Part shown: positions 1,572 through 59,231 of the stretch, piece by piece
How positions within the stretch are numbered: position 1 is the first letter of the stretch
Layout: the number at the start of each line of letters is the position of its first letter
Translations under genes and position numbers: made by a program
Notes under the pieces: model-generated
Database searches by the model: none
Told to the model about the DNA's origin: nothing
What the model saw: only the letters and a program-made list of their open reading frames with translations
Source: Mesostigma viride
Taxonomy: Eukaryota > Streptophyta > Mesostigmatophyceae > Mesostigmatales > Mesostigmataceae
NCBI GenBank assembly: GCA_009746045.1
Contig: RPFO01000175.1
Span: 4,323,794 to 4,387,793, forward strand
Direction: 5' to 3'
DNA: 64,000 nucleotides

Positions 1572-4500
1572 GTCGGCATCTCCCACGGAGGCATGCTCCG
1601 CTCCATTCTGGCATCCGCATGCAAGCGACAAGGCGTGGCCCTTCCTCCGCCCAATGAGAAACTAATATTGGCCGGAGCAGGTCGGCCGGGGGCACCGCCC
1701 GCGCCCTCGCACCGCCAGCTCGTGTACGTCCTGTTCGGGGGAGACACAGCGGAGCGCCAGGTGTCGCTGATCAGCGGCACCAACGTCTGGCTCAAGCTCA
1801 TGGCGCTTCCAGGGGTAGGTTTCGAACAGGGCCAAGCTTGTTGACTGGGGGGGCTTCGGTGTACACGGGCATCCCAGGGTAGGTTCAGGGGCAATATGCC
1901 ATGGGTTGATTACATGCCAGGGCCCTGCCGGTGGGATGCAGGTGTACACCCATCACTGCCAATGCCCCAACCTCCACCATCACCCTTACCGACCCACCCC
2001 AATGATCCCCCTCTACCCACTACCCCCCACCGCCCCACAGTTCCAAGTCAAGCCTTTCCTCTTGACGCCGGACTTTGCGCGCGAGAAGACGCTGCTGGAG
2101 AAGGACGTGCTCTCCCTCCCGTACGTGAGAGACATAAAAGAGATGAAGTCGATTGACAGGAAACAGTATGGTGCCTTCTCCTTCCCGTGTGTTGCGGCTG
2201 ACAGGCTAACCATGGCGTGCATTATCCTAACCTGACAGGCCCCTTCACGTTGGTTCGTGTGCGGACAAGCTTATTTGTGCTCTCCCTCCCCCGCCTGCAC
2301 ATGACAACGGATTGGACGCAGCATGGTTGTGCTCTCCCTCACCCTCCTGTACGTGACAACCTCTAGGACACAGTAGCGTGTGATCCTGCCGGATGCAAGC
2401 GATGGTTGGTAGGACGCCGCGGGGTGTCATGGTGCTGCTTGGCGCTGATGATTCTTGGCTGGGTGTAGTAGGTACAAGTTAGGAAAGCTCTTCCTTTAGA
2501 GAGTGACAGCTGACAGGCCCCACCGTGGCTCGCAGCGCATCCCTTGTATTGTGGGCCGTGCGCCGCTACGACCGTGCTGCCCACATGCCTAGTGCATGGA
2601 CGAGCCCCTGCTGGCGCACACGCCCAGCTTTCCAACCACCCTCTGCTATCCAGCCTTGATGACCCTTAGCTTAGCATGCGGGCCTGGACCGTCATGCGAT
2701 GACCGCTCAGCTACTACGTACCTCACAGACATGACACATGCTCTGTCTCTCATACTAAATATCCGTCCACTTCTCCTCCCTCGCTCTCACCCCTCCCTCT
2801 TCCCCTCCCTCTTCCCCTCCCTCTTCCCCTCCCTCTTCCCCTCCCTCTTCCCCTCCCTCTTCCCCTCCCCTCTGTAATCTGCCCTGGGTCCTCTCCTGTC
2901 CCCTTTCTCTGCCCCCCCGCCACTCCCCCTCCCGCTCCTTCCGCCGCCCCGCACTTCTTTGCCCCCCCAGCTACAACCTGGTCCTGCGCCACACGGTCGA
3001 GGAGGTGGAGGAGGGCTGCCACCGCGCGCTGGAACCCGAATACGCCGCCCAAATGGACGAGATCGTCGCGTCGGTGCAGGCCGCGCTCGGGTACAATGAT
3101 GCCGCCATTGGCACGCCCCATGGGGCCACAGGAACACCCAACGGGGCTGTTGTCGCTTCGCAAGGCAACGGGGCGGTCGTCCATGGGGCGGCCAGGGCGG
3201 GAGAGCGCATGGCGGCGGATGCAGGGATGGGGCTGTGCTTCCGGAGAGAACCGCCCAAGAAGCTCAGCCTGCGCGAGTTTGTGGCGTCGGCCAAGGCAGA
3301 CGGCGCGGTGGTGTTCATCGCAGGTGCGTGTCATAGCCGCGCTCCGTCATAAATACAGCGATCCTTGGGGACGGTTCTCTTTGAACTGGACCATTGAATA
3401 TATAGCAATCCTTGGGGATGGTTCTCTTTGAACTGGAACGTTGAATATACAGCGATCCTTGGGGACGGTTCTCTTTGAACTGGACCGTTGAATATACAGC
3501 GATCCTTGGGGACGGTTCTCTTTGAACTGGAGCGTTGAATATACAGCGATCCTTGGGGACGGTTCTCCTTGAACTGGAGCGTTGAATATACAGCGATCCT
3601 TGGGGACGGTTCTCCTTGAACTGGACCATTGAATTCGCACCAGCCGTGGGTTGGACGAATGGATGACACAGGGCGTTGTTGCTCAAGATGCGCAGGTGGT
3701 TTCTATCTCTGCGCCGCGCCCGACCCTATTTCCCCGGCCAACTTGTCACTTTTCTTGTTTCCATTTTCTTCTTTCACTTTTCTTCTTTCGCTTTTTTTCT
3801 TCATGCTGTCCGTTGCCCATCGTATCCCTGGGTCCCTGCCATGCTGGCCTTCCGGGGTATCTCCCTTCATGGATCGAGCATACAAGTCCCCCTAACAGCG
3901 CGTCTTGTTACGCGCACTTGAGGGTTCTCGTTATCGATATTGACGTGTGCCCTCATGGATTACGTGCTCCCTAGTGTGCCGTCATGGACTACGTGCTTAC
4001 TAATGTGCCCTCATGGATTACGTGCTCCCTAGTGTGCCGTCATGGACTACGTGCTTACTAATGTGCCGTCATGGACTACGTGCTCACTAGGCTTTGTGCA
4101 TAGCAGCTCCTGACGCCTCCCATGCAACATGCCACGTGTCCGCTCCTCTCGTTCCATTTTTTGGTAGTCCACGGCGGCGCGGGGGAGGACGGGCGCATCC
4201 AGGCCCTGCTGGAGGATGCGGGGGTCTGCTACACAGGTAAGGATGTCCTGCGTGGTCTCGCGTGTGTTTGGAGTATGTCATGCGTGGTCTCGCGTGTGTT
4301 TGGAGTATGCCCTGCGTGGTCTCGCGTGTGTTTGGTATCGGCCTGTTCTACGCACCCGTTGTGTCATGCGGCAAATCTTGGTTGGTTGGGCGCTAAATAT
4401 GGCGTGTTGGGTTTTCGATATGGGTGGGACGCTACGCGGGTGGGTTGGGCGCTAATTATGGGTAAAGGTTGTAGATAAGAGGGAAAAGCTACGCGGGTGG

Positions 4501-58600: not shown

Positions 58601-59231
58601 TTCGGACTGGCTCTCTGTCTGGCAAAAATCATCAGAGTGCTGTCCCTCGGCCATGCTTCCTGAGCAGCAACACTTTCCCCATAGTGGGTAATATCGGATC
58701 TGTCCATGGAAACTGCTGGCGTGGTAGTGCGATTGGCCCGTTCTACTAGGAGGAGCATCATGTGCACAATGGCATGCATGTACCTATGCGCAACGGACTA
58801 GACCTGGGCCGGACACCCAGTCCGTGGAATTGCCCGCTCAGCCAGTCTCTCCCCAGTGGTGCGCCAAAGGCTTGGTTTCATCGGCACTGTGCTTGGTAAG
58901 CAAGGCAGGAGAAAGGTCCCTTTAGCTTTGTTCCGGCGCTCCCCCCCCGCCCCCCCTTTCACCTCTCCTACTCCCACACGCGCCCACTGACCCTTTCCCA
59001 TGCTCGATTGTCGGTTTCTTCTTTCCTTGGGGTCATGCATGTGGCTGGGGGTGAGCCTTCCAGTGATACAAACATCTGCTGTTGTGCTGACATCCGCGTC
59101 TCTTTACGTCCAGTACTCGTTATTATTGTTTGATGCCATCACGTTGTACTCTTTGGTACCCTCTCGCCCGTGCGGCCCTGCAGGTCATCTCGCGGATGGG
59201 GCCCAGGGAGGCCAAGGAGTACCTTTTGGAG
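49641..59231 (+). CDS. Secretory EGF-like domain GT4-type glycosyltransferase (3' partial, 8 exons seen)
   Basis: Exons 49641-49912, 50960-51398, 52612-52818, 53417-53632, 55788-56159, 57334-57366, 57966-58163 and 59184-59231 join in phase (595 residues) and continue beyond the window. The protein begins with a signal peptide or anchor (LIRGLIIIGVLACSHVSL, 10-27). An EGF-like module has six Cys at 82, 86, 92, 97, 99 and 108 (CRDNCNGRGQ, CVQGICICNTGFEGDVC). After a Pro/Ala/Gln linker, a glycosyltransferase fold starts at about 203: KVCLVTCEVVGPVNNGGIGT, FTEMAYSLRRRGHQ, DVIHFHDYQG, LVGVHGPTLW, ERRSVALADYVVSPSNYI, then the junction ELVYFGRLETRKGVIMFCDA, which uses an exon of only 33 nt. This motif series is that of GT-B, GT4-like retaining enzymes. 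Sugar donor and acceptor are unknown; the secretory route suggests cell wall or glycoprotein work. A long Ala/Gly/Ser insert lies in exon 5. Confidence 0.88.
50660..50865. repeat. 36-bp AT-rich repeat, about 5.5 copies
   Basis: Units ATGACATATATGATTCATAT, GGAATGATTCCTATAT are followed by a 24-bp poly-C run at 50881, in intron 1 (49913-50959). At 50340-50405 there is also a small GGGGGGCA repeat. Confidence 0.92.
51399..51660 (+). repeat. 60-bp array of the exon-2 donor, 4 to 5 copies
   Basis: The true border is AGGGGGCACCAG then GTGGGTGCGCTGGTTGGTGG at 51399. Each following unit ends AGGGGGCCGCGAG and restarts GTGGGTGTGCTGGTTGGTGG, so it repeats the last dozen exon bases plus about 48 intron bases. 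A more decayed copy of the exon end (ACCTGCGGCGAAAAGGCCAC) is at 51730. Confidence 0.93.
52190..52490 (+). mobile_element. Copia-type polyprotein remnant
   Basis: The frame reads AGCFLGHSTGRSALDGHPIL, YVHRRHHRWHVTETVLFHK, resembling the post-integrase region of Ty1/copia polyproteins (FLGxS ... rdVxFxE). It sits in intron 51399-52611, is short, and has no flanking catalytic motifs or LTRs that I can see. Confidence 0.35.
52825..52862 (+). repeat. Echo of the exon-3 donor
   Basis: GATGCCATCCACTGCCGTGA, CTGCCAG, GTGCGC duplicates GACGTCATCCACTTCCACGA, CTACCAG, GTACGC at 52792-52824. The copies are directly adjacent. Confidence 0.85.
53235..53308. repeat. (AAT)n microsatellite
   Basis: About 24 AAT/ATA triplets in intron 52819-53416. 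Confidence 0.95.
53638..53735 (+). repeat. Three echoes of the exon-4 donor
   Basis: The true exon ends CCCCAGCAACTACATCCTGC, AG, then GTGGGT at 53633. Copies: GCCAAGCAACTACATTTCGC AG (53641), CCCCAGCAACTGCACCCTGC AGGTTC (53672) and AAATACTAATTCATCCTGCA GGTGAT (53707). The last two keep a GT after CAG. Confidence 0.88.
53990..54930. repeat. 9-bp satellite GTGATTAGG, about 104 copies
   Basis: A 940-bp array in intron 53633-55787. A central block changes to GTGATTACG (54490-54590) and GTGATTATC (54590-54700) before reverting. This is evidence of regional homogenisation. Ile-Thr-Leu and Asn-His-Pro frames on both strands are artefacts. Confidence 0.97.
54981..55021. other. Perfect 18-bp inverted repeat with 5-nt loop
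   Basis: GGGTATGTTACAAGGTTG (54981-54998), loop GTTAT, then the exact complement CAACCTTGTAACATACCC (55004-55021). It lies about 50 bp after the end of the 9-bp satellite. It may form a hairpin or cruciform; no poly-T follows on either strand to suggest a pol III terminator. Confidence 0.9.
56160..57333. other. Intron 5 of the glycosyltransferase gene
   Basis: No repeat array or exon recognised over 1.17 kb. It is followed by the 33-nt exon at 57334-57366. Introns 57367-57965 and 58164-59183 are likewise unremarkable apart from poly-G at 57430-57450. Confidence 0.5.

Follow-up and report, generated by a model that had tools for sequence, protein, structure and literature searches.

Do introns of the alga Mesostigma viride gather copies of their own exon borders by a process aimed at splice sites, or are the borders simply caught up in copying that goes on throughout the non-coding DNA? 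The question is raised by a stretch of 64,000 nucleotides (nt), here called the window, from contig RPFO01000175.1 of assembly GCA_009746045.1 (forward-strand positions 4,323,794 to 4,387,793; C224:4323794-4387793 in our numbering). Introns of several unrelated genes in the window hold extra copies of the adjacent splice donor (last exon bases plus GT) or acceptor (AG plus first exon bases). An earlier reading, made from the letters of the window and here called the sequence-only reading, proposed a genome-wide process at exon borders, such as replication slippage or template switching, that lengthens introns and seeds minisatellites. We find that interpretation partly supported. Our own reading, to which we give a probability of about three in four, is that local tandem duplication is pervasive and untargeted and catches exon edges as well, so that no mechanism aimed at splice sites is needed.

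Exon borders and their copies

Exons were curated by homology, splice consensus and reading frame. The final set holds 109 borders (55 donors and 54 acceptors; 63 in the window and 46 outside) from 57 introns, and both borders are known for 52 introns. The window genes are the second half of a ligase, a DEG9-type protease, a GT4-type glycosyltransferase, an EF-hand protein and a DCC1-like protein; outside it the set draws on the other (first) ligase half, on a glycosyltransferase that is probably the continuation of the one in the window, and on genes for a proline dehydrogenase, a kinase and an exostosin. Three genes at arbitrarily chosen places supply 26 of the 46 outside borders, one of these loci being on the window's contig, 1.3 Mb off. 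A border score, S, was computed over 40 nt on each side, anchored at the junction, with small gaps allowed and microsatellites masked; the search ran along the same strand for up to 800 nt into the intron, with a 12-nt guard at the border. A two-arm copy, or echo, has an exon arm of at least 6, an intron arm of at least 6 and a total S of at least 20, and a one-arm copy has an exon arm of at least 14. Some results refer to a first set of 49 borders (one of 50 motifs was not located) and others, namely the copy lengths, identities and head-to-tail counts, to an intermediate set of 95; both sets include two wrong borders that were later dropped.

Echoes at S ≥20 are present in the own intron of 25/109 borders (donors 17/55, acceptors 8/54): 18/63 in the window, 7/46 outside it, and 4/26 in the three arbitrarily placed genes. 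Foreign borders scored against the same introns give 1/5,832 (donors 0/2,970, acceptors 1/2,862). By the exon arm alone, 20/55 donors and 9/54 acceptors have a copy, and sampled foreign borders give 2/440 and 0/432. In the first set, shuffled introns yield 0/245 at S ≥18 and a search on the wrong side of the border yields 1/49, the copies being almost confined to the intron side. Chance or consensus similarity is thus ruled out by the shuffles and the foreign borders, both of them comparisons that the sequence-only reading had proposed. That reading was also right that the ligase, EF-hand, DEG, glycosyltransferase and DCC genes, on both strands, have introns with copies of their own donors or acceptors, exon bases included. 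Its estimate of at least twenty echoing borders agrees with the 20/63 window borders (13 donors, 7 acceptors) that account for 20 of the 29 exon-arm echoes; by both arms, 18/63 is close to it. The range it described, from a single echo to some 15 units, runs from the 24-nt echo of DEG donor 45728 to the 15-unit, 68-bp array at 37730-38747.

The 27 copies with S ≥18 lie 34-748 bp from their sources. For the 22 echoes at this threshold in the intermediate set, the medians are 154 nt for the distance, 28.5 nt for the exon part and 31 nt for the intron part, and the mean identity is 82%. Might such copies be errors of assembly in repeats? Assemblies built from PacBio, Illumina and optical-map data can give long arrays the wrong number of units. 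Most copies, however, are diverged (mean identity 0.82), and they are present on three contigs, C224, C2 and C3; assembly error is a highly improbable source for them. The published Mesostigma assembly is of this type and has 441,847,188 bp in 2,363 scaffolds with a mean intron of 1,141.9 bp and 24,431 genes (strain NIES-296), according to the consulted text of PMC6947507; the assembly used here has 439.9 Mb in 2,243 contigs.

Are the copies retained for a function, as alternative or decoy splice sites? The splice dinucleotide is intact in 18/22, compared with 15.0 expected from identity, but this count is biased by the required intron-side match; where a match of the exon arm was the sole requirement, GT is intact in 13/20 copies and AG in 6/9. 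The distance between copy and source is divisible by 3 in 10/27 cases, and because a modulo-3 bias is absent there is no sign of in-frame use, which disfavors in-frame alternative exons. The DEG protein, moreover, aligns without gaps across its junctions with a homologue. We consider retention for function very unlikely.

Are borders special?

Introns clearly match their own borders more often than foreign ones, and the first outcome that would have counted against the sequence-only reading did not occur. That comparison, though, cannot separate a border-directed process from general local tandem duplication; a control within introns can. Copies are also common at non-coding points chosen at random. 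Random non-coding points of the window have a nearby copy in 16-17% of cases (700 points per direction, the array past 59,500 excluded). For the first set in the window, the rates are 14% for decoy GT, 17% for strong decoy GT, 16% for decoy AG and 11% for decoy pyrimidine-AG, and 14/49 for the borders. In nine other 10-kb pieces, with coding sequence not filtered out, the rate is 18% of 997 points and ranges from 1 to 46% by piece.

For the within-intron control, each border was compared with points 60-600 bp inside its own intron. Borders have 27 copies where interiors predict 18.4 at S ≥18 (P 0.009), and 25 where they predict 17.1 at S ≥20 (P 0.011). At the latter threshold donors show 17 versus 9.4 (P 0.003) and acceptors 8 versus 7.7; the window shows 18 versus 10.4 and the outside 7 versus 6.7 (outside donors 5 versus 4.1), with 4 versus 2.6 in the three arbitrarily placed genes (P 0.20). 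At S ≥25 there are 14 copies versus 15.3 expected, and at S ≥30 there are 10 versus 13.7, the outside borders giving 2 versus 5.8 (P of so few 0.02). Since no excess is seen at these two thresholds, recent duplications are no commoner at borders, and are perhaps rarer. The whole excess over interiors consists of weak echoes, chiefly of donors and chiefly in the window that raised the idea. Of the proposed genome-wide border process, then, the widespread occurrence stands, with echoes outside the window and in arbitrarily placed genes; action at the borders is not supported, interiors being copied about equally.

Exon-only sequence and tandem repeats

What was copied? Segments of 80 nt taken wholly from exons are found in the adjacent intron in 1/360 cases in each direction (overlapping points, 47 exons). 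The one-arm profile, which uses 40-mers at offsets from the border and so gives several correlated points per border, tells the same story at finer scale: for donors the rate at the border is 20/54, against 3/55 at an offset of -20 and 1/55 at -40, and for acceptors exon-only 40-mers give 1/54 at -20 and 0/54 at -40. As exon-only segments are almost never copied into introns, the copied segments must in general have spanned the border. Dispersed templated insertion, drawing on any sequence in the neighborhood, would copy exon-only sequence too, and is disfavored for that reason; a tandem duplication of such sequence would put its copy in the exon, usually with harmful effect.

Tandem repeats make up 25.9% of the window; in 135 kb from other loci their share is 18.0% (3.7-37.3% by locus), the highest coverage among the other loci being in the two that flank the window. 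The consulted text of PMC3887541 puts tandem repeats at 42,059 bp/Mbp in Chlamydomonas and at 55,454 in castor bean, with an average of 13,209 over the other species surveyed, figures that serve as a rough yardstick only, because the methods differ. Among window arrays of period ≥20, 45/48 have no match elsewhere in the roughly 200 kb of sequence examined; two of the remaining three extend into the adjacent locus, and one is CA-rich and matches a stretch of locus L008. The suggestion that duplication lengthens introns and seeds minisatellites is plausible; several echoes are units of arrays.

A proposed model: untargeted duplication and one-sided divergence

We propose that non-coding DNA of this alga undergoes frequent local tandem duplication, with units of tens to about 100 bases that would often grow into private minisatellites, and that exon-intron borders would be hit about as often as intron interiors. 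The mutational step would be slippage, template switching or unequal exchange. A duplication across a donor or acceptor would leave an intact border beside the exon and a surplus copy of the exon edge inside the intron, and the mRNA would be unaltered provided the exon-adjacent site stays in use; homology and the open frames suggest that the exon-adjacent sites are the ones used in RNA. Because the mRNA would be unchanged, such a duplication would be nearly neutral and mostly retained. Thereafter the exon copy would be held by selection and the intron copy would drift, so that the pair diverges on one side only. Border-straddling duplicates would thus stay recognizable longer than intron-only ones, because one copy is conserved, and might come to resemble deliberate echoes.

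The one-arm profile is in line with one-sided divergence. Donor 40-mers at 0 to +20 are matched in 82/216 cases versus 112/492 at +40 to +400, a ratio of 1.67 (+30, with 14/54, was excluded as transitional), and the rates are 0.35-0.41 at 0 to +20, 0.17 at +40 and 0.13-0.30 beyond. Outside the window the counts are 31/92 and 44/215. Acceptor 40-mers give 42/215 near the border versus 73/478 in the interior, a ratio of 1.28. When uniform tandem duplication with conserved exon sites is simulated, the one-arm ratio of border to interior is 1.28-2.16. The donor ratio falls in this range, which makes the donor excess compatible with untargeted duplication and a conserved exon copy. In the two-arm simulation, the total ratio is predicted at 1.14-1.51 and observed at 1.46.

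Several results weigh against so simple a model. With the one-arm threshold raised to 18, the simulated ratio is 1.43-2.26, and donors show 1.24 (49/216 versus 90/492) and acceptors 1.07 (25/215 versus 52/478), which is under the simulated range. The two-arm simulation predicts a ratio of weak to strong copies of 0.05-0.20, where 0.79 is observed, and a border/interior ratio for strong copies of 1.17-1.50, where 0.92 is observed: there are too few strong copies and too many weak ones. Weak echoes (S 20-24) number 11 versus the 1.8 expected from interiors (Poisson P <0.0001), and 4 versus 0.7 outside the window (P 0.0055). Donors echo more often than acceptors (17/55 and 8/54, Fisher P 0.067), which the simplest model does not foresee. 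Finally, just 7/22 echoes are head-to-tail-like, the remainder being shorter than their distance from the source, so that one has to assume either later change or a different route of copying. If fresh border duplicates were partly purged, the strong class would shrink; decay of older duplicates, together with continued change in the spacer, would leave copies that are not head to tail.

Might a border-directed process copy the exon tail and donor into the intron, for example by R-loop template switching or by slippage at G-rich donors? Such a process would be favored by the donor excess over interiors, by the weak echoes inside and outside the window, and by the step in the donor one-arm rate between +20 and +40. 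The two-arm excess, however, is absent outside the window, strong echoes show no excess, acceptors show little, and at a threshold of 14 the donor ratio is in line with untargeted duplication plus conservation of the exon copy. We think border direction unlikely. One might also suppose that splice donors are long-term hot spots, where segments of exon tail plus donor of about 15-60 nt are copied into the intron at a several-fold rate; more than a third of donors would then have a decayed copy, and acceptor duplications would be less tolerated, as expected if the first AG past the branch point wins. We hold this whole reading to be doubtful. If it were true, exon borders would be fossil recorders of the rate and age of local duplication. 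As matters stand, the claim that borders are copied beyond what exon conservation explains is not supported, and the excess of weak echoes remains.

Relation to known systems

How does untargeted duplication across borders compare with what has been described elsewhere? According to the consulted text of PMC4974935, a new intron arose in a potato RdRp gene when a tandem duplication spanned an intron-exon boundary. The mutation class is the same as far as that text describes it: a short tandem duplication over an existing boundary, carrying splice signals. The potato case is a new intron in one gene, whereas the copies described here are found within introns already present, at roughly one in four of the borders examined, with no sign of new introns.

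The intron-gain model of PMC3443670 likewise invokes local tandem duplication with AG|GT sequence, and one could imagine that Mesostigma introns were born by tandem duplication of AGGT-bearing exon sequence, the echoes being remnants. The mutation class is shared, and the donors are AG|GT-like (before the GT, A in 21/26 and G in 23/26 of first-set donors). In that model, though, the exon duplicate yields both a new donor and a new acceptor, and here the two are unlike: within an intron, donor and acceptor match by two arms at ≥16 in 0/52 cases (1/2,322 for other genes), and the donor exon tail is found at its own acceptor in 1/52 (14/2,322 for other genes). We therefore reject birth of these introns by AGGT duplication, which is extremely improbable on these counts. 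The same comparison with the far border shows that to call the introns built from copies of their own borders, as the sequence-only reading did, was an overstatement.

In the consulted text of PMC3887541, tandem repeats are dense in introns and significantly enriched close to the junctions with exons, above all in two green algae. Those are different algae, and the likeness lies in repeats near intron ends; that text mentions neither an exon edge nor a splice site within the repeat units. There is likeness also to minisatellites, or variable number tandem repeats, with head-to-tail units of 10-100 bp: the echoes at 37730-38747, 51397-51660 and 24908-25140 are array units. Most other echoes, unlike minisatellites, are single, short and decayed. 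The signature of local tandem duplication is present in the privacy of the arrays to their loci and in the uncopied state of exon-only sequence. Introners place one intron sequence in many genes; here, in a comparison of border-sized pieces, foreign borders hardly ever match, and within the sequence examined arrays are mostly private. In NAGNAG and GYNGYN tandem splice sites, rival sites lie a few nucleotides apart. The copies counted here are 34-748 nt away, closer pairs falling within the 12-nt guard and so outside the search. A search by titles and the beginnings of abstracts, with subscription journals mostly outside it, found no paper on border-straddling copies at this frequency, which is weak evidence.

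Features of the window

The copies and arrays are collected in Table 1. The copy at 8986..9061 lies 98 bp upstream of its source, almost head to tail. By eye, a second decayed copy of ligase donor 2120|2121 is seen near 2280, and more copies of acceptor 22958, recognized in translation, lie farther upstream.

Table 1. Border copies and tandem arrays in the window (positions in window coordinates; S, border score).
Feature	Position	Strand	Details
Copy of ligase donor 7002|7003	7216..7275	+	38 nt exon side, 22 nt intron side; 83%; 251 bp downstream
Copy of ligase acceptor 9123|9124	8986..9061	+	40 nt intron side, 36 nt exon side; 91%
Weak copy of ligase donor 2120|2121	2342..2356	+	S=15, sub-threshold
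49-bp minisatellite	13088..13328	+	Starts at ligase donor 13088|13089; exon side uncopied, no two-arm echo
Copy of EF-hand donor 25999	25751..25825	-	59 nt exon side, 16 nt intron side; 72%
33-bp array	24908..25140	-	Units hold donor of 25129 (GGCCAG|GTGGGTG), EF-hand gene
Copy of EF-hand acceptor 22958	23059..23144	-	28 nt exon side, 58 nt intron side; 77%
Copy of EF-hand donor 21865	21713..21803	-	61 nt of EF-hand exon; 81%; copy without GT
Copy of EF-hand gene donor 20719	20251..20314	-	434 bp downstream
Copy of DCC donor 30904|30905	30974..30998	+	S=25; least extent
68-bp array, 15 units	37730..38747	-	Units 98% alike; holds acceptor of DEG exon 37739-37638
Weak copy of DEG acceptor 40997	41131..41152	-	S=22; least extent
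Weak copy of DEG donor 42046	41334..41357	-	S=24; least extent
87-bp tandem duplication, 2 copies	42199..42372	-	93%; includes DEG acceptor 42227; duplicates 29 nt of exon
Copy of DEG acceptor 42636	43284..43304	-	S=21; 662 bp upstream; least extent
Copy of DEG donor 43910	43621..43639	-	S=19, barely sub-threshold; least extent
Copy of DEG donor 44530	44230..44347	-	70%; copy without GT
Copy of DEG donor 45728	45649..45672	-	24 nt; 92%
60-bp array, 4.4 copies	51397..51660	+	96%; holds donor of glycosyltransferase exon 50960-51398
Copy of donor 52818|52819	52839..52860	+	34 bp downstream; least extent
30-bp array, 3.5 copies	53610..53713	+	70%; across donor 53632|53633

Other repeats are present in the window. 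A 60-bp satellite array runs from 59617 to the window's end at 64000 and on into the next locus, L002 (base 1 to at least about 3400), so that it measures at least about 7.8 kb; it probably sits between exons of one glycosyltransferase gene. The arrays at 3353-3634 and from 59370 onward, some 56 kb apart and otherwise unlike, have the 13-mer CAGCGATCCTTGG in common, which occurs 84 times on the + strand of the window and 75 times in locus LX2. A pure (ACCC/GTGG) microsatellite at 22561-22755 begins exactly at the GTGGGT donor 22754, which suggests that a G-rich donor can itself seed slippage. Within a DEG intron, at 37381-37462, lies a degenerate ACCCTAA array of plant-type, telomere-like sequence.

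Genes and border curation

How secure are the borders? The second half of the ligase gene (1572-13990, + strand) has a single open frame across 12 exons to its stop; the whole is a double D-Ala-D-Ala ligase gene extending over loci L010 and L001 and the window, and all curated junctions are open in both halves. The DEG gene has 12 window exons in one frame with a stop at the end, and its protein aligns with a Klebsormidium protein over 461 residues, ungapped across junctions, so that its borders are well fixed. Its best PDB match is Protease Do-like 9 (600 bits), and it is of green-plant type, with 66-74% to the best 120 of 3,710 proteins, the named ones of which are from land plants and green algae. 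The glycosyltransferase has one open frame across three exons.

In the EF-hand gene (20300-26300, - strand), the junction 25129/22958 breaks phase; an exon is probably missing there, and the junction was retained in the set. The sequence-only reading called this gene P2X, an identity that we could not confirm: Pfam and the best 60 PDB rows give solely EF-hand matches. The PF00864 profile has zero matches in the genome, but a control profile likewise matched nowhere. The DCC junction was assigned by eye. One glycosyltransferase intron was retained despite a phase mismatch, and site scores are poor at three acceptors, two in the glycosyltransferase and one in the proline dehydrogenase. One of five exostosin seed exons (LX5 5351-5220) was dropped, there being no candidate. 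Two early assignments were rejected: the site at 43298, taken for a DEG acceptor, is itself a copy of the actual acceptor at 42636, and 30319, assigned as the DCC donor, gave way to 30324.

The region C1:5.00-5.05 Mb was not usable as an intron control, as it is virus-like and half N. Its loci L015-L019 (C1:5000001-5050000) hold dense intronless open reading frames, by eye capsid-like, D5-primase-like and DNA methyltransferase-like, and resemble an endogenous giant virus. Elsewhere, the dynein heavy chain domain AAA_6 has 44 matches in the genome with very varied exon structure, some lying in open frames longer than 1,600 residues and others split over several exons.

Significance

What would untargeted duplication across exon borders mean for this alga? 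If border duplications arise at the general rate and mostly escape purging, the genome is a natural experiment on splice-site choice, in which many introns offer extra donors or acceptors over a gradient of distances and ages, and the choice made can be seen directly in the RNA. The exon copy, being preserved, would in addition be a means to date local duplication. There is also a caution, that the apparent echoing of functional sites can come from untargeted duplication and selection on one of the two copies.

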